Source: a virus. Taken from it: a stretch of 34,026 nt of DNA. Of this stretch, positions 20,222-33,984 are shown one piece after another. Location of the stretch: positions 1-34,026 of IMG/VR virus record IMGVR_UViG_3300020021_000031. One strand, written 5' to 3'. Made by a program: the position numbers and the translations under genes. The first letter of the stretch is position 1; every line of letters begins with the position of its first letter. Under the pieces are notes generated by a model. The model had not been told where the DNA came from, made no database searches, and saw only the letters and a list, made by a program, of their open reading frames with translations.

Positions 20222-21235
20222 ATGCCTGCTTTTGAGGACATCATTGCAGCATTAAAGGGAGGGCAGGCGCAGCCCGATGCCATGCCGTTCGGCGTGGGCG
20301 GCCCTGCTGAGCCCGTGCACGAGGCAACCAACATCATCAATCCTGTAGTTGGGCATGTTGCTCAAAGTGTTGCGAATGTACCGAAGCATTTAATTGATCA
20401 AGCAACACAATTTGATCCAACGGATATTCGTGGAAGCACTGAAAGGGTGGTGCCTGCGGCAACGGATACAGTTATGGCTTTAATGGGAAGAGGCATTGCT
20501 GCGCCCAAGGCTGGACTTGGTGCTTTTGGCGGTACGATGGCTAAAACAGCTGATCTTCGTCAACTTGATGCTGCCATGACACGGTCTGCTCGTGGTGCGA
20601 ATCCAGATCAAACACGTATGATGACGGGTTGGGAGCAGAACCCAATTGATCAGAAATGGCGCTTTGAAATTCCAGACAATAAAATGGCTATGAAGTTCAT
20701 GCCCCAGAAGTTGGGGGACAAAGCTACAGGGTCTATAGATTCATTGGTTAGTCATCCTGAGTTAATGAAAGCCTATCCTGATCTTAAAGGCCTTCGTCTT
20801 GATCTAACAAAAACTAAACCAGGAATAGAAGAAGGAGGATACTACCCACCACGAGGAAAGGTACCCCCACGATTTGAGGCAGATGCCCCAAATTATGCAG
20901 GCGGTAGAAGTGTTATGGGGCATGAATTGCAACATGGGATTCAAAATATTGAAGGTTTTTCGCCGGGTGGGATGCCTGAGCAGTTTATACCTCATTTTGA
21001 AAAGATCATGAGGCAGAGTGACGCTCCTTACGATCATGCACATCTTACCGATTTGGCGCATCAGTCGTATCACAACATAGCTGGTGAAGTTGAGGCTAGA
21101 AATGTTCAAAAAAGATTGGATTTTTCACCACTTCGGCGTTTGACCGAACCCCCTGTCATGACACAGGATGTCCCGTTTCATGAACAATATGATGTAAACA
21201 AGATGATAGAATTGCTTAAAAGTAGAAATAAATGA
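20222..21235 (+). CDS. HExxH metallopeptidase-like virion protein
   Basis: 337 residues. The C-terminal half has a zinc-peptidase signature: GHELQHGIQNIEGFSPGG with H234-E235-xx-H238, and a downstream acidic helix IAGEVEARNVQKR (E289/E291, a candidate third ligand). This arrangement occurs in metallopeptidase-like domains of large phage polyvalent and internal virion proteins. The N-terminal half (about 1-130) is Ala/Gly-rich and helical, similar in style to the ejection proteins downstream, suggesting that the peptidase is packed in the particle or processes its partners. Placed between the adaptor and hub genes. Overlaps the next gene by ATGA. Confidence 0.75.
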   Translation: MPAFEDIIAALKGGQAQPDAMPFGVGGPAEPVHEATNIINPVVGHVAQSVANVPKHLIDQATQFDPTDIRGSTERVVPAATDTVMALMGRGIAAPKAGLGAFGGTMAKTADLRQLDAAMTRSARGANPDQTRMMTGWEQNPIDQKWRFEIPDNKMAMKFMPQKLGDKATGSIDSLVSHPELMKAYPDLKGLRLDLTKTKPGIEEGGYYPPRGKVPPRFEADAPNYAGGRSVMGHELQHGIQNIEGFSPGGMPEQFIPHFEKIMRQSDAPYDHAHLTDLAHQSYHNIAGEVEARNVQKRLDFSPLRRLTEPPVMTQDVPFHEQYDVNKMIELLKSRNK

Positions 21236-22902
21236 GGAAGACTACAACAGTTGAGAAAATTGCCACGGCTGCACCTGACGTGCAGTCTAAGGTTATTCCT
21301 GTGCCTACTGATGGCTGGGATGCCATTTCACCCTTGGCATCTATGGATCCGAAACGTGCACCTATTCTCAATAACTGGATACCACGCCCCGGTTGGGTAG
21401 AATTGAGGCAGGGTTATTTTCCATGGGTGCTCTTGAATACCCCTACAACGCCAGTTGAGACAATAATGGTACGTCGGGCTCAAGGTGGGGAGCAGATGTT
21501 TGCTGCTGCTGGCAGTTCTATCTATGATGTCTCTATCAGTGGTGTGAGTTCGGTTGTTGTATCGGGTTTGAATTCGGCCAGATGGCAATATGTCAATTTT
21601 ACTCCGGGGGCTGGTACTACTGTTATCCAGCTTGTGAATGGGGTCGATACTCTTCGTCAATATAATGGAACAGTGTGGTCCATTCCAGCAATCACAGGGT
21701 TGCCGGGTGGTCTGTCTACGGCTGCTATAACGAATATTCATGCACAAAAACGCAGGCTTTGGTACGTCCTCGGCAATGGCACTGGCGGTGGTTCTACCGT
21801 TTGTGCCTTTATGCCAACGGATGCTATTACGGGGGCTATCGCAGGTACCCTCGATCTTGGTGCCAACTGGACCAAGGGTGGCTATCTTATTTCAATTGCT
21901 GATTGGACGATTGACGGCGGTAACGGCCCGCAAGACTATATGGTGTTTATTTCAAATCGTGGGCAAGTCAGCATCTTCAGCGGGACTGATCCTACCAATG
22001 CGGCTACTTTTACCCTTGTAGGCACTTTTGATATATCCCCGCCCATCAGCTTGCGTTGCGCTACCAAGATTGGTTCTGATGTTGCTCTTATTACGCAACA
22101 AGGCGTTGTCCCGCTTTCACAAGCGTTGCCTTATGACCCAAGTGCGGAGCGTAGTGTTGCAATTACTGCTCGTATTCAGAATGCCATGGCGCAAGCAGCC
22201 CAAGTTGGTGGGGATATGTTTGGCTGGCAATTAATAAGTTTTGCTCCACAGCAGCTTGCTATTTTAAACGTTCCCCAAACTGAGAATAACACACAAGTTC
22301 AGTTCGTCATGAATGTTCTGACAGGTGCGTGGTGCCAGTTTATTGGATGGAACGCCAATTGTTTTGAAGTCTTCCGTGATGTTTTGTATTTCGGTGGAAA
22401 TGTTGGGGATGTTAATAAGTGCTTTGTTGGAAGTACTGATTTTACCACGCCCATCCTCGCTGACATGCAATGTGCCTATAATTATTTTGATGCACCGGGT
22501 CGGTTAAAGAGAATGACAATGGCTCAGCCGTTTATTTCGGCGGGTCAAACTATCACGCCCTTTATTTCCGTAGATGCTGATTTCCATGTTCAGACACAAA
22601 ATGCTCCGCTCCAGATTTTCAATGGTGGTGCATTGTGGGATGTGGCTGTGTGGGATACTGATAAATGGTTTGGCACTGTCATCCAGACCACCTCTTGGAT
22701 AAGCACAGAGGCTATGGGGCATGCTTTAGCCATGCATCTCACTATCAATATTGCGACAGTAGCAGGGGGTAACGGCACCCTTGGTCAATTTGATTTCTCA
22801 TTTTTTGATGAAGGATTGTTTGACACAAGTTTGGATACAACTTCTATTTCTCTTCAAGTTAATGCCTTCAACTCTATCATAGAATTGGGTGGTTTCATAT
22901 GA
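21232..22902 (+). CDS. Tail hub / DNA stabilisation protein, P22 gp10-like
   Basis: 556 residues. The opening (DGWDAISPLASMDPKRAPILNNWIPRPGWVELRQG) is typical of gp10-type hub proteins of P22-like short-tailed phages ('W....sla.M....A..L.N..P....v.lR.G'). The rest is beta-rich with repeating blade-like segments (IHAQKRRLWYVLGNG, YMVFISNRGQVSIFSG, FVMNVLTGAWCQFIGWN, VFRDVLYFGGNVGDV), consistent with a beta-propeller. The role is to plug and extend the connector after packaging. Direct neighbour of the gp4-like adaptor, with only a peptidase gene and a short ORF between. Confidence 0.83.
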   Translation: MRKTTTVEKIATAAPDVQSKVIPVPTDGWDAISPLASMDPKRAPILNNWIPRPGWVELRQGYFPWVLLNTPTTPVETIMVRRAQGGEQMFAAAGSSIYDVSISGVSSVVVSGLNSARWQYVNFTPGAGTTVIQLVNGVDTLRQYNGTVWSIPAITGLPGGLSTAAITNIHAQKRRLWYVLGNGTGGGSTVCAFMPTDAITGAIAGTLDLGANWTKGGYLISIADWTIDGGNGPQDYMVFISNRGQVSIFSGTDPTNAATFTLVGTFDISPPISLRCATKIGSDVALITQQGVVPLSQALPYDPSAERSVAITARIQNAMAQAAQVGGDMFGWQLISFAPQQLAILNVPQTENNTQVQFVMNVLTGAWCQFIGWNANCFEVFRDVLYFGGNVGDVNKCFVGSTDFTTPILADMQCAYNYFDAPGRLKRMTMAQPFISAGQTITPFISVDADFHVQTQNAPLQIFNGGALWDVAVWDTDKWFGTVIQTTSWISTEAMGHALAMHLTINIATVAGGNGTLGQFDFSFFDEGLFDTSLDTTSISLQVNAFNSIIELGGFI

Positions 22903-29525: not shown

Positions 29526-29545
29526 ATTTGCTCCTTTGTTGGGTT

Positions 29546-29551
29546 GGGAGG
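29546..29551 (+). promoter_or_regulatory. Ribosome binding site pointing to an ATT start
   Basis: GGGAGG lies five bases before ATT 29557, and no ATG or GTG is available at that position. No comparable site precedes the in-frame TTG codons at 29536 and 29539. It is therefore the element that decides the start of the fibre gene at 29557. Confidence 0.55.
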
Positions 29552-29556
29552 CGACT

Positions 29557-30240
29557 ATTCCCCGTAACGGTACAGGAATTTACTTTCTACCCCAGCCACC
29601 GTTTGTGGCTGGTACCGTTATTTCTTCGGCAGCAATGAATAGTGATCTTAGTGATATTACCGCCGCCTTGACTGGTTCCTTTGCTCGTGACGGGCAAAGT
29701 CCTATGACGGGGCAATTCAAAGCTGTTGATGGTGCTTTGGCTGCTCCCGGATTATCTTTCAATAATGAAACTAACACTGGATTTATGAGGATCGGTGTTG
29801 GTCAGATAGGCGTTGTCATCCAAGGTGTGTTAGTCAACACATTCTCTACCGCTGTTATGACAGTATCAGATTGGTGGGACAATACTCAAAGTAAAACGAT
29901 GTTGACCGATGTGATGAATGCTACAGGAGCATTCGTTTCCTTGACTGATGCAGCAACCATTGCTTGGGATAATAGAACTGGAGTTAATTTTACAGTTACG
30001 ATTGGGGCCAGCCGCACTTTAGGCAACATGACTAATCCAGTGGTTGGTCGTTCTGGTATATTAGAGGTTATTGAAGGAGGTGCAGGTGGCTTCACTTTGA
30101 CCTTGAGTGCAAATTACAAGACAGATGTGGGTGGAGGATTCACCATTGACACTGTGGCTGGTCGTAAAAACGGCATCATGTATTTTGTGCGTAGTGCGAC
30201 AGAAGTTTGGCTCTCCTTGCCGTTTAAGGGAGTCCGCTGA
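29557..30240 (+). CDS. Tail fibre protein with shared docking N-terminus; ATT start likely
   Basis: 227 residues if started at ATT 29557, where a GGGAGG site sits five bases upstream. With that start the protein begins (M)PRNGTGIYFLPQ, which aligns with MPRNGSGTYGLPQ of the 31330 fibre. TTG 29536 would add seven residues and has no SD. The first ~85 residues are paralogous to 31330 (FVAGTxISSAAMNSDLSDI, ALTGS, FNNExNTGF, GVGxIGV), a likely docking domain. The remainder (DAATIAWDNRTGVNFTVTIG, SRTLGNMTNPVVGRSGILEV, ...VRSATEVWLSLP) is a beta domain common at the ends of short phage fibres. Overlaps the collagen-like gene as TGATG. Confidence 0.78.
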   Translation: MPRNGTGIYFLPQPPFVAGTVISSAAMNSDLSDITAALTGSFARDGQSPMTGQFKAVDGALAAPGLSFNNETNTGFMRIGVGQIGVVIQGVLVNTFSTAVMTVSDWWDNTQSKTMLTDVMNATGAFVSLTDAATIAWDNRTGVNFTVTIGASRTLGNMTNPVVGRSGILEVIEGGAGGFTLTLSANYKTDVGGGFTIDTVAGRKNGIMYFVRSATEVWLSLPFKGVR

Positions 30241-30719
30241 TGTTTCCCGGAGCAAATGCACAGATTTGTGGTTATCAAATTATTGCAGGATCATCGACTT
30301 TTAATACTGTAGGAACTTTTCCTGTCATTATACCTGATAGATACAAAGTCTATACTGCGACATTAACACCCAGTGGATCGGGTACTCCGGGCGCTACAGG
30401 TACTCCGGGTACTCCGGGAACGACAGCACCGGGCGCACCGGGATTGCCGGGAGCACCGGGCTCCCCCGGTGTGGCGGGATCACCGGGATCAGCGCCCAAT
30501 TTTAATGGTACAACAACGACAACGTCTTGGCCTCGTGGGGATCCCGGAGCACCGGTTCCCGGTGCTACTGTAACAGTACAAGTTTTTGCTGGAGGCGCTG
30601 GAGGCGCTGGAGGTGCGGGAGGCGCTGGAGGTTCTGGATCTCCCGCTGGTACCCCCGGACCTCCCGGTGCCCCCGGTCCAGCAGGTGCTACAGGTGCGGC
30701 AGTCTTAAGTTGGGTATGA
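30240..30719 (+). CDS. Collagen-like phage fibre protein
   Basis: 159 residues. After a ~45-residue N-terminal domain there is a Gly-X-Y run (residues about 48-85, one interruption after G60-T-T) in which 8 of 12 triplets have Pro at Y (GTP, GAP, GLP, GSP). A short non-collagen part (NFNGTTTTTSWPRG) follows, then a strand with a Gly-Gly-Ala block (VTVQVFAGGAGGAGG) and a second short Gly-X-Y run (about 137-154, GTPGPPGAPGPAGATG). Such runs form trimeric collagen helices in phage fibres. Pro-Gly codons here are always CCC or CCG, never CCT or CCA. The gene directly downstream encodes a prolyl-hydroxylase-like enzyme, making this protein its natural candidate substrate. Confidence 0.88.
   Translation: MFPGANAQICGYQIIAGSSTFNTVGTFPVIIPDRYKVYTATLTPSGSGTPGATGTPGTPGTTAPGAPGLPGAPGSPGVAGSPGSAPNFNGTTTTTSWPRGDPGAPVPGATVTVQVFAGGAGGAGGAGGAGGSGSPAGTPGPPGAPGPAGATGAAVLSWV
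30381..30701 (+). repeat. Gly-X-Y (collagen) and Gly-Gly-Ala coding repeats
   Basis: Bases 30381-30494 and 30648-30701 encode the two Gly-X-Y runs, and about 30591-30630 encodes the Gly-Gly-Ala block as a GGAGGCGCT-type 9-mer repeat. Such short DNA repeats are prone to slip, so the number of triplets may vary between related phages. Confidence 0.8.
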
Positions 30720-30732
30720 AAAGGAATAGCGT

Positions 30733-31317
30733 ATGTGGTTACTGCAACCTTTGCCTATGTTTCAATCATGGGGATTTTGGAAAAATGCTTTTGCTCCACA
30801 TGAGTTGCGTCTTTTGAATGGTTTAGGCGAACAATTGAAAATTGAACAAGCGACGGTGGGTGATAATCAATTAGATAAAGAAATTCGAGAGAGTGAAGTA
30901 GCTTGGGTACCAGAGACTGAAGAGTACCGTTGGCTGTATGAAAGATTGTCGGATATTTCTAATCGTCTAAACGAGATGTACTTTCACTTGGATCTAAAAG
31001 CCATTCAACCTTTACAATTTACTGAGTACGATGGAAGTAAACAAGGTTTCTACGGTCAACACATTGATGCAAGTTATGTTCCCGGAGTAGGTTTATTTCG
31101 AAAATTGAGTTTCACTGTTCAGTTATCCAAGCCTGAAGATTATGAAGATGGTGAATTGGTTTTGTATCCTGAATCTTTCGACAAACCGATTAAGGTTGAA
31201 AAAGAGCTGGGATTGATTACAGTCTTTCGTAGTCATATTATCCATGAGGTTAAGACAGTAACTAAAGGTATTCGGAAAAGTTTAGTTGGCTGGATTGAAG
31301 GGCCGTTATTGAAATGA
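30733..31317 (+). CDS. 2-oxoglutarate/Fe(II) dioxygenase, prolyl 4-hydroxylase-like
   Basis: 194 residues with AAGGA eight bases before the ATG. The double-stranded beta-helix fold of Fe(II)/2-oxoglutarate dioxygenases is indicated by the iron triad H110-x-D112 (in YGQHIDASY) and H171 (in SHIIHEVKTV), with R181 (TKGIRKSLVGW) at the place that binds 2-oxoglutarate. The upstream segment (RESEVAWVP... then LQFTEYDG) is typical of the prolyl-hydroxylase branch. The length is right for a single catalytic domain; all key residues are present, so it should be active. It follows the collagen-like gene by 13 bases. The inferred reaction is hydroxylation of Pro in Gly-X-Pro triplets; a free-living or host substrate is not excluded. 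Confidence 0.85.
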   Translation: MWLLQPLPMFQSWGFWKNAFAPHELRLLNGLGEQLKIEQATVGDNQLDKEIRESEVAWVPETEEYRWLYERLSDISNRLNEMYFHLDLKAIQPLQFTEYDGSKQGFYGQHIDASYVPGVGLFRKLSFTVQLSKPEDYEDGELVLYPESFDKPIKVEKELGLITVFRSHIIHEVKTVTKGIRKSLVGWIEGPLLK

Positions 31318-31329
31318 AGGAAGATACAG

Positions 31330-32211
31330 ATGCCTCGTAACGGTTCTGGAACCTATGGTTTGCCGCAGACAGCATTTGTAGCTGGTACTACTATTTCTTC
31401 TGCGGCAATGAACAGTGACCTTAGTGATATTGCTACGGCATTGACTGGTTCGCTCCCCCGCGATGGTCAAGCAGGTATGACCGGCCAGCTTAAGCTACCA
31501 GATGGTAGCGCCGTTGCCCCTGCATTCACATTTAACAACGAATCCAATACTGGATTTATAAGATCTGGTGTTGGTTCGATTGGTGTTATTATCAACGGTG
31601 TTCAGATTTTTGCAATTACCAGCACAGGCATTCCAGGAACTGTTCCTGTAGGAATTTTTGGTGATTGGGCAGGACCAACTTTACCCGCGCTCTGGTTGTT
31701 TTGTTTTGGACAGGCTGTCAGCAGAACAACCTATGCTGCTTTGTTTGCAGCAATTGGAGTTACTTATGGTTCTGGTGATGGGTCAACCACATTCAATGTT
31801 CCTGACGGGCGTGGTTATGCTTTTGTTGGCAAGGACGATATGGGTGGTGCTGCTTCAGGTCGTTTGACAACGGCATTTTATGGAAGCAGCCCAATTGTTC
31901 TTGGTAACCCCGGTGGTTTGCAAAGCCGATCCTTGATCACGGCGAATTTGCCTCCTATAACCCCAACAGGGACAATTGGAATAACTGATCCGGGCCATAC
32001 GCACACCTATAATACCTTGAATGCTGGCGTCCATCAGGACGGTACTCAAGCAGCTGATGTCTTCACTGTGCAAACTCTTCAGACAACAAACTCAGCCGTT
32101 ACGGGCATATCAGCTTCGTTTACTGGCACAGGGGGTGGAGGTTCCAGCACAGCTTTCTCATTTGTTCAACCTTCATTTATCGTCAACAAGATAATTTACG
32201 CAGGGGTATAA
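31330..32211 (+). CDS. Tail fibre with collar domain
   Basis: 293 residues with SD AAGGA. The N-terminal ~95 residues are the docking domain shared with the fibre at 29557. A tail-collar domain follows (about 105-170): VPVGIFGDWAGPTLPALWLF, GQAVSRTTYAALFAAIG, TFNVPDGRG and VGKDDMGG. Then a GHTHTY motif (HxH), like the metal-binding turn in short tail fibres of T4-type phages, and a common terminal motif (FVQPSFIVNKIIYAGV). It is therefore probably a receptor-binding fibre tip. It sits next to the collagen-like and hydroxylase genes. It contains one of the four CCWGG pentamers. Confidence 0.85.
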   Translation: MPRNGSGTYGLPQTAFVAGTTISSAAMNSDLSDIATALTGSLPRDGQAGMTGQLKLPDGSAVAPAFTFNNESNTGFIRSGVGSIGVIINGVQIFAITSTGIPGTVPVGIFGDWAGPTLPALWLFCFGQAVSRTTYAALFAAIGVTYGSGDGSTTFNVPDGRGYAFVGKDDMGGAASGRLTTAFYGSSPIVLGNPGGLQSRSLITANLPPITPTGTIGITDPGHTHTYNTLNAGVHQDGTQAADVFTVQTLQTTNSAVTGISASFTGTGGGGSSTAFSFVQPSFIVNKIIYAGV

Positions 32212-32214
32212 CAG

Positions 32215-32847
32215 ATGCCATTTTCTGGGACAGGTGTTTACACTCCTGCTGCTGGTGCGCTTACAGCAGCACCGGGGGGTATCATACAATCTTCAGTGTG
32301 GAATGCTATCTTCACTGATATGACAGCCGCATTTACGAACGTTGCGCAGTCAAGACGTTTGTTGAATACCTTGACAGCAGCTACTTCTGCTACGTTGGCA
32401 GATACAACAAGTTTAACTTCCACTTTCAAAGATTATGAAATTGTCTTTGAAAACATAGTTCCAGCAACCAACACCGTCACACTTGAATTTCAAGTTCATT
32501 CTGGAGGTACATTTCCAGCTACTGCCTATGTTAATAGCACTTTTGGAACTAATGGTAGTGCTACTGTTCTTGTGAATGCAGCTACAACATATATTCCTTT
32601 AACAGCTACTACTATAGTTAACACGACCAGTGTTGGTATGTCAGGATCAATAACGATATTTGGACCTGTAAATACTGCTTCTTCTATAAAGAATATTGCA
32701 GGAAATACATCATCTTTTAATACTGCCGTTGTGTCAACTGTGGTTGGTGGTTTTTGGAATAGCATTGCTGCGATAGATGGATTTCAAATCCTCTTTACAT
32801 CTGGAAATATCTTAAGTGGAACAGTCAAAGTTTATGGATTGTTGTAA
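32215..32847 (+). CDS. Short tail-fibre-like protein
   Basis: 210 residues. N-terminus (MPFSGTGVYTPAAG, then PGGIIQSSVWNAIFTDMTAA) resembles the docking domains of the fibres at 29557 and 31330 in layout, with a different sequence. The remainder is Thr/Ser/Asn/Val-rich beta structure; the end (IDGFQILFTSGNILSGTVKVYGLL) is a motif found at the ends of phage fibre or tail-knob proteins. Probably a further fibre or tip subunit of the same particle. Overlaps the lysozyme gene as TAATG. Confidence 0.75.
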   Translation: MPFSGTGVYTPAAGALTAAPGGIIQSSVWNAIFTDMTAAFTNVAQSRRLLNTLTAATSATLADTTSLTSTFKDYEIVFENIVPATNTVTLEFQVHSGGTFPATAYVNSTFGTNGSATVLVNAATTYIPLTATTIVNTTSVGMSGSITIFGPVNTASSIKNIAGNTSSFNTAVVSTVVGGFWNSIAAIDGFQILFTSGNILSGTVKVYGLL

Positions 32848-33401
32848 TGAAAGCAAATCGAATAATCACCCTCAATTCTATCCTTCAATGGGAAGGCAGT
32901 GACTTAAACACGTCACCAAACGAGCCCGGTGGTGCTAGCAAGTTTGGCATCTCAGTAGATTTTCTGGATGACTATCACAAGAAGCATGGCTGGCCTCGTG
33001 CAGATATTCCTCATGTGGCACTTCTTACCAAAGACGATGCCATGTTGATTTACAATGAGATGCTGCTTGATCCTCTGCATTTTGATGATTTGCCTACAGG
33101 GGTCGACTTCAGAATGGCTGATTTGACTACGAATTTAGGCATGACGGGCGGTCCAAACCTACTTCAGCTTTGTTTGGGCATGTTCCCCTTAACGGGAGCG
33201 GTGGACAAGCAGACTATAAACCTTGTACAAGCAATTGATCCAAAAGCTCTGGTCATAGCACTGAGCGCTGCTTGGATAGCCGTCAAGCATCAGAGCCCTA
33301 ACTGGGGGCCACACCCTCCAATCACTAAATCCGGTTTTGGCCATGGTTGGTCTAACAGGAACAATGCACAAAGGGACGCTGCACTAGCACTTATCAAATA
33401 G
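32847..33401 (+). CDS. Endolysin, GH108 muramidase
   Basis: 184 residues. The N-terminal signature ILQWEGSDLNTSPNEPGG with candidate catalytic Glu16 and the SKFGIS motif is that of glycoside hydrolase family 108 lysozymes, which cut the glycan strands of peptidoglycan. The C-terminal part (KALVIALSAAWIAVKHQSP, then GFGHGWSNRNNAQRD) matches the peptidoglycan-binding module that usually follows this domain. No signal peptide or membrane anchor, so release would need a holin. It starts in an overlap with the fibre gene and lies just before a second cell-wall enzyme. Confidence 0.88.
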   Translation: MKANRIITLNSILQWEGSDLNTSPNEPGGASKFGISVDFLDDYHKKHGWPRADIPHVALLTKDDAMLIYNEMLLDPLHFDDLPTGVDFRMADLTTNLGMTGGPNLLQLCLGMFPLTGAVDKQTINLVQAIDPKALVIALSAAWIAVKHQSPNWGPHPPITKSGFGHGWSNRNNAQRDAALALIK

Positions 33402-33411
33402 GAGCTACTCC

Positions 33412-33984
33412 ATGACCTTCAGCCTACTCTGGTTACCGGGTGTCCTCAGGGCTTGGGGTCTTACAGTCAACGAAGTGCCCGGCTGGCAAAATAGAGGCCA
33501 TGGTGATGAAGGACAAGTTCTCGGAGTTCTTTGCCACCATACCTGCGGCCCTCTTCACGGTGATCTTCTCGATCTTAATGTGCTCGTCAGCGGTAGGCCT
33601 GATCTTGGTGGCCCGCTCTGTAATTTGGGCTTGGGTCGTTCTGGTCATTATTGGATGATAGCTGCTGGTAAAGGCTGGCATGCTGGGGCCGGTGTTTGGC
33701 AGGGAGTCAGGGACGGCAATTCACATTTCATCGGCATTGAAGCTGAGAATACTGGGGAGACGAAAGGGCCTAGAGCTGATACTTGGCCCACAGTTCAGAT
33801 GGATGCTTACAAGCGAGGTTGTGCAGCCATCCTGACCCATATTGGTGCTTCGGCCATTATGTGTGCTGGACATAAAGAATACGCTCTGCCTCATGGGCGT
33901 AAGAATGATCCAAATTTTGATATGGTTAAATTCCGTGAAGATGTCAGGAAACTGATGCATCCCTCACCTCCGGCAGAAGTATGA
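33412..33984 (+). CDS. Zinc N-acetylmuramoyl-L-alanine amidase
   Basis: 190 residues with GGAG at 33402-33405. Amidase_2/PGRP-type motifs are visible: VLCHHTCGP (zinc ligand His42), GWHAGAG, GIEAENTG with Glu110, and AGHKEYALPHGRKNDPNFDM (His154 and Asp166 as further ligands). It cuts the bond between muramic acid and the stem peptide. A muramidase plus an amidase gives two cleavage types for lysis; one may instead serve entry. A hydrophobic ORF lies inside it in the +1 frame (33506-33658). The stop overlaps the start of the next, cut-off gene. Confidence 0.87.
   Translation: MTFSLLWLPGVLRAWGLTVNEVPGWQNRGHGDEGQVLGVLCHHTCGPLHGDLLDLNVLVSGRPDLGGPLCNLGLGRSGHYWMIAAGKGWHAGAGVWQGVRDGNSHFIGIEAENTGETKGPRADTWPTVQMDAYKRGCAAILTHIGASAIMCAGHKEYALPHGRKNDPNFDMVKFREDVRKLMHPSPPAEV
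33506..33658 (+). CDS. Embedded hydrophobic ORF, possible holin (speculative)
   Basis: In the +1 frame of the amidase gene, ATG 33506 lies eight bases after AGAGG (33493-33497). It encodes 50 residues: a charged start (MKDKFSEFF) then two hydrophobic segments (TIPAALFTVIFSILMC and VGLILVA... SVIWAWVVLVIIG). This is the layout of a small holin, and embedded lysis genes are known in other phages. It could also be an accident of a Gly/Leu/Val-rich frame. No other plus-strand holin is visible in the window. Confidence 0.28.
   Translation: MKDKFSEFFATIPAALFTVIFSILMCSSAVGLILVARSVIWAWVVLVIIG

Follow-up and report, generated by a model that had tools for sequence, protein, structure and literature searches.

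A Gly/Pro-rich fibre-tip-like protein and a neighbouring oxygenase of prolyl-hydroxylase fold in an exchanged tail-fibre block of a phage

The genome of a tailed phage, a virus of bacteria recorded in IMG/VR as IMGVR_UViG_3300020021_000031 (positions 1 to 34,026; these 34,026 nt are called the window throughout), carries two adjacent genes which we read as substrate and enzyme within an exchangeable receptor-binding module, the X-Pro-Gly prolines of the fibre tip being hydroxylated. We give this reading a probability of about 0.58. The pair is real and recurrent and functions probably as a fibre and a fibre-modifying hydroxylase, and the proline in X-Pro-Gly as predicted target is the best-supported, still unproven, step.

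In the proposed mechanism the 159-aa Gly/Pro-rich fibre-tip protein would probably be attached to the fibre encoded directly upstream, and the 194-aa enzyme would be a cytosolic peptidyl prolyl hydroxylase, dependent on Fe(II) and 2-oxoglutarate, that modifies the X-Pro-Gly prolines of this protein while the phage is being assembled. We infer the fibre protein as substrate and proline, at its position 4, as the modified residue. The hydroxyl groups could affect the stability of a PPII/collagen-like packing or change the binding surface; a stiffening or thermal stabilisation of the fibre, as put forward by the first-pass annotation, is something we purely infer.

Gene layout and exchange of the fibre end

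The pair is preceded by a tail fibre gene (29536..30240, + strand) whose start codon is uncertain, the window reading IPRNG where the relatives have MPRNG. Its stop codon is overlapped by the start ATG of the gene for the Gly/Pro-rich fibre-tip-like protein (30240..30719, +), the proposed substrate, with 12 GxPG motifs. Thirteen bases further, as had been noted before, and on the same strand follows the gene for a 2OG-Fe(II) oxygenase of prolyl-hydroxylase fold (30733..31317, +) with the Fe ligands H110, D112 and H171 and the 2OG-binding R181. Downstream are a tail collar fibre protein (PF07484; 31330..32211, +), which is kept in relatives without the pair, and another fibre-like protein (phrog_14820; 32215..32847, +), which forms a conserved flank. 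The fibre proteins encoded at 29536-30240 and 31330-32211 have about 105 N-terminal residues in common, so that in the window alternative fibre ends seem to be mounted on one and the same virion-anchor domain. No Rfam RNA was found around the gene pair. The window also contains three cell-wall-hydrolase-like genes at 32847-33401, 33412-33984 and 21232-22902, assigned to GH108, Amidase_2 and a large amidase (phrog_5107).

A near-identical phage record was not found. In the two closest relatives of the window, the records L593 and L594, the flanking proteins are 63-91% identical outside the fibre gene and the fibre itself is 45% identical. By blastn both relatives lose their DNA homology to the window within the fibre gene, at 29825-29828, and regain it at 31312-31314, where the enzyme gene ends with its stop codon. 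These breaks indicate that the fibre end, the Gly/Pro protein and the enzyme are exchanged as one block (29828..31312), which includes the C-terminal half of the upstream fibre protein. The corresponding slot in L593 and L594 holds three unrelated small ORFs; these records, which are possibly fragments, yielded no Gly/Pro protein and no enzyme. The pair is thus gained or lost jointly, its joint absence being seen in two close relatives only. A further locus (L595) encodes a Pro-poor Gly-rich protein and is without the enzyme.

The fibre-tip-like protein and the enzyme

The product of 30240-30719 had been described as collagen-like, with Pro at Y in about 8 of 12 triplets of a main Gly-X-Y run. 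The count is confirmed (Pro at Y in 8/12 triplets, Pro at X in 0/12). The triplets, however, form runs of 5 (residues 48-62) and 7 (residues 65-85), and the 'AP' breaking in between means that there is no single run of 12. In a third Gly-X-Y tract at residues 137-154 Pro is at Y three times and at X twice, and a GGA tract is also present. With the Pfam Collagen model (PF01391) at 14.2 bits (E=0.039) against a cut-off of 27.2, and without a long unbroken Gly-X-Y stretch, the protein is not a demonstrated collagen. Composition-preserving shuffles equal its longest run of 7 triplets in 34/20,000 cases and reach the 12 GxPG motifs in 0/20,000. A single-sequence structure model had a pLDDT of 47 and was unusable.

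Next to related enzymes are larger proteins in which long GNPG/GTPG arrays are interspersed with GGAGG tracts. They share a head TFNxxGTFxVPxGV and an ISW-like tail, and several of them exceed the Pfam Collagen cut-off. An HMM of the head of this Gly-rich fibre-tip family, built without the window ORF, matched that ORF with E=1.7e-4 among 19,658 ORFs, the match being partly low-complexity and found with the profile only, since single-sequence phmmer gave no significant head homology. Judged from sequence, we read the 159-aa protein as a short member of this family, and its Gly/Pro part could be packed in a polyglycine-II-like or triple-helical manner. Small Gly-rich proteins encoded behind a fibre gene are likewise known from gp38 of S16/PP01, with its polyglycine-II sandwich structure (PMC12892980), and from the Gly_rich_2 tips. 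The window ORF differs from these by its dense GxPG motifs, its partnered hydroxylase and the lack of a Pfam Gly_rich_2 (PF21722) match at E<=0.1. Other relatives of the enzyme are found near Gly_rich_2 proteins (phage Bellamy). The collagen-like phage fibres such as the E. coli prophage collagens (EPclA) also contain Gly-X-Y repeats in a fibre, but they favour Pro at X and are said to have no prolyl hydroxylases (PMC3368898), whereas in the window Pro is at Y and the enzyme is adjacent.

The enzyme belongs to the 2OG-Fe(II) oxygenase superfamily (PF13640, E=1.8e-13, 51.7 bits against a cut-off of 27) and matches phrog_61 (4e-27). The HxD motif (H110, D112), H171 and R181, which had been reported intact, are all present and invariant in 42-44 relatives, and with 194 aa the protein is indeed a single-domain enzyme. 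An AlphaFold model built from 42 aligned sequences reached a pLDDT of 93.8. The structures closest to it are those of peptidyl prolyl hydroxylases, with Z scores of 17.9-20.6 over 160-181 residues: the complex of P. putida PPHD with EF-Tu (4iw3) and a Trichoplax PHD (6f0w) at 20.6 each, PHD2 at 20.4, an algal P4H with (Ser-Pro)5 at 18.3 and vCPH of PBCV-1 at 17.9. The fold of the model is thus that of the P4H/PHD/PPHD group, which supports a protein-prolyl chemistry without proving it. PiuC, however, follows just behind the top with 18.1, so that the fold alone does not separate the enzyme from the PKHD hydroxylases. Since the top structural matches are protein hydroxylases, we favour neither a nucleic-acid nor an AlkB-like role, the absence of AlkB from this list being in itself no exclusion.

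On the sequence level the order of nearness is a different one, with the PKHD hydroxylases first, followed by PPHD, the B. anthracis P4H and the algal P4H; in a profile search the E values were 1e-16 for PKHD, 1e-7 for the B. anthracis P4H and 2e-7 for the algal P4H. The description of the enzyme as prolyl-hydroxylase-like agrees with the fold; by sequence the affinity is to PKHD hydroxylases, and the collagen-type P4Hs are farther away. With the PKHD hydroxylases (PiuC, YbiX, Sbal_3634) the enzyme shares the blocks Y-GGEL and H-VxPVxxGxR, but the alignment covers only the C-terminal ~100 residues, and the context of the window enzyme is one of fibre genes. PBCV-1 vCPH (PDB 5c5t), itself a viral enzyme, the algal and B. 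anthracis P4Hs, PPHD and PHD2 have the same DSBH fold, HxD...H triad and single catalytic domain. The window enzyme is only 16-22% identical to vCPH and the other peptidyl P4Hs, has Arg as 2OG-binding residue, where collagen P4Hs have Lys, and comes from a tailed phage in which it adjoins a fibre-tip gene and is exchanged with it. The animal collagen prolyl 4-hydroxylase, an alpha2beta2 enzyme, possesses in addition N-terminal dimerisation and peptide-substrate-binding domains and a PDI beta-subunit, while the window enzyme consists of the catalytic domain alone.

Association of the enzyme family with GxPG-rich proteins

A scan of IMG/VR with the window enzyme as single protein yielded no relatives; by one pattern there are at least 596 enzyme loci in it. 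From 80 enzyme loci sampled blind to collagen, clustering at 70% identity left 44 dereplicated loci with enough flank. A Gly-rich ORF lies within 6 kb in 28/44 of these compared to 3/39 tail-collar control loci (p=8e-8), and one with at least three GxPG in 21/44 compared to 1/39 (p=2e-6). The association expected from the gene pair thus recurs among phage genomes, and homologues lacking such a neighbour, which would have spoken against it, are a minority, as 16/44 loci have no Gly-rich ORF within 6 kb. A substrate-enzyme cassette is partly supported by this association with Gly/Pro fibre proteins and by the block exchange, but not with the partner as a demonstrated collagen. Tight same-strand adjacency is seen in several loci, with an overlap of 10 b in L368/L369 and 8 b in L370. 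Near the enzymes GxPG is counted 555 times and GPxG 113 times. This excess runs against the literature, in which prokaryotic and phage collagens are described without a preference for Pro at Y and without hydroxylases, the B. anthracis P4H being the exception (PMC3368898, PMC8968730).

The reverse sampling gave a similar picture. In a set of 43 Gly-rich ORFs chosen without regard to proline, the same locus contains the enzyme for 5/7 ORFs with at least five GxPG and for 3/36 others (p=0.001; the cut-off was set after the table had been seen, and a threshold-free test gives p=0.003); with at least 5 kb of flank the numbers are 5/6 and 3/31 (p=0.0007). For records anchored on collagens the presence of PF13640 is not informative, as it occurs at similar rates with Y-Pro (8/50), X-Pro (10/50) and Y-Lys (9/50) collagens, and a specific link of PF13640 to Y-Pro collagens was rejected. 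Only the subfamily split is informative here: 12/100 records selected for a Pro-rich collagen contain the subfamily of the window enzyme, against 0/50 selected for Lys at Y (p=0.009), and the Lys-Y, Pro-poor collagens carry another 2OG subfamily, often interleaved with the collagens. A related enzyme clade sits next to collagens with Pro at X, and Pro at Y as the exclusive target, as first suggested, is therefore not upheld. On a tree of 90 family members, scored by changes of the neighbour label, the labels are clustered (Y-Pro 17 versus 27 changes, X-Pro 8 versus 15; 0/500 shuffles), which we regard as supporting but not decisive because near copies inflate such clustering; the branch of the window enzyme is long and poorly placed, among members both linked and not linked to Gly-rich proteins. 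Some relatives are in replication contexts, between uvsY and uvsW in syn9 and beside a resolvase in CRP-810, and bacterial-genome relatives have a GxPG-rich neighbour in 5/80 and any collagen or Gly-rich neighbour in 13/80 cases. Such enzymes may work in trans, or several substrates may be used within the family. Cultured phages carrying the family include S-CAM9, S-PRM1, S-8S53 (Pro at X, Lys at Y), S-SSM5, Bellamy and Stenotrophomonas phage DLP6.

We consider it unlikely that the enzyme modifies the fibre at Lys, Asn, Thr, Asp or an X-position Pro, providing hydroxyls for later glycosylation or sulfation. Relatives do occur beside GPT collagens, in which Pro occupies X and Thr occupies Y, cyanophage relatives are in cassettes with a GT25 plus PLOD-type glycosyltransferase, and a sulfotransferase and 18 other 2OG oxygenases are among 75 neighbours scanned. 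Yet proline is the common feature of the collagens adjoining the subfamily of the window enzyme, a different 2OG subfamily accompanies the Lys-Y, Pro-poor collagens, and the fold is that of prolyl hydroxylases. Quite unlikely in our view is a host protein as target, such as EF-Tu or a ribosomal protein, which the enzyme would hydroxylate as P. putida PPHD does, its place in the fibre module being incidental. The PPHD-EF-Tu complex as best structural match, the relatives in replication or nucleotide-metabolism contexts and the loci without a nearby Gly-rich ORF agree with such a target; the strong proline-dependent association with Gly/Pro fibre proteins and the adjacency to and block exchange with the fibre end do not, since a host-directed enzyme has no cause to track the proline content of a fibre.

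Fibre regions often exchange genes, and the enzyme could also be an auxiliary metabolic gene, PKHD/PiuC-like or acting on small molecules, that lies near fibres because of such a hot spot. Although the PKHD hydroxylases are nearest by sequence, the NCBIfam PKHD models (PRK05467) stay far under the cut-off (best 69.8 versus 143 bits) and the association varies with GxPG content. Moreover, 0/69 tail-collar loci carry the enzyme, which is thus not a general passenger of fibre regions. We therefore regard this possibility as very unlikely, and hydroxylation of fibre-tip prolines is retained as the preferred reading.

Possible related modification systems and wider meaning

Other putative modification genes were seen alongside. 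A protein of 589-621 aa with GT25 and PLOD glycosyltransferase domains is encoded in the cultured cyanophages S-8S53, S-PRM1 and S-CAM9 and in Roseobacter phage CRP-6 (such proteins lie at L003:8564-10426, L004:8555-10396, L012:8001-9839, L010:7971-9737 and, on the - strand, L269:2801-4621). It lies downstream of a collagen fibre that has Lys in the Y position, has in some cases a weakly detected C-terminal 2OG domain, and looks like an enzyme for collagen lysine hydroxylation and glycosylation. In the phage loci L384-L388 several Lys-Y collagen ORFs alternate with separate 2OG oxygenases of the second subfamily. A phage ORF at L371:2-5674 (record of L036) has ~466 Gly-X-Y triplets, of which 304 carry Pro at Y and none carries it at X, and ~2 kb downstream of it is a 2OG enzyme of yet another subfamily, without relatives in the phage collection. 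Further 2OG oxygenases (PF13640, PF13759) make up 18/75 ORFs neighbouring the enzyme loci L394-L472, where a sulfotransferase and a tryptophan halogenase are also found, suggesting fibre-decoration islands. On Sphingobium and related chromosomes (L711, L727, L735) a relative of the enzyme is beside a collagen-like (GPS/GPT)n lipoprotein-like ORF with a large ORF upstream (a ShlB/FhaC-type transporter in L735); this arrangement offers a parallel in culturable bacteria.

Taken at the level of the group, tailed phages may possess a dedicated fibre prolyl hydroxylation with enzyme subclades matched to Y-Pro or X-Pro, next to a second 2OG subfamily for Lys-Y collagens and, in some cyanophages, a GT25/PLOD-type lysine glycosylation enzyme; we advance this only tentatively. 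Our search of the open-access literature turned up no paper that connects phage collagen or Gly-rich fibres with a neighbouring hydroxylase; subscription papers were mostly outside this search and priority is not established. The statement that bacterial and phage collagens lack hydroxyproline reflects the general view but needs qualification, as a bacterial P4H active on collagen-like peptides is already on record (PMC8968730), and would need revision for phages if our reading is true.

'P4HA' is among the commonest auxiliary genes of Baltic Sea viruses and its viral use has been called cryptic (PMC9301287); we propose X-Pro-Gly of fibre-tip proteins as a substrate class for it. If this is true, hydroxyproline would be present in phage receptor-binding proteins, fibre stability or host binding could hinge on oxygen, iron and 2-oxoglutarate, and the production of hydroxylated collagen in bacteria would gain small single-domain hydroxylases that come with matched substrates. 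The findings suggest, but do not prove, that phages alter their own tail fibres chemically in a way comparable to collagen modification in animals, and if such a fibre-hydroxylation system exists, an animal-like collagen maturation would be a common strategy of aquatic phages.
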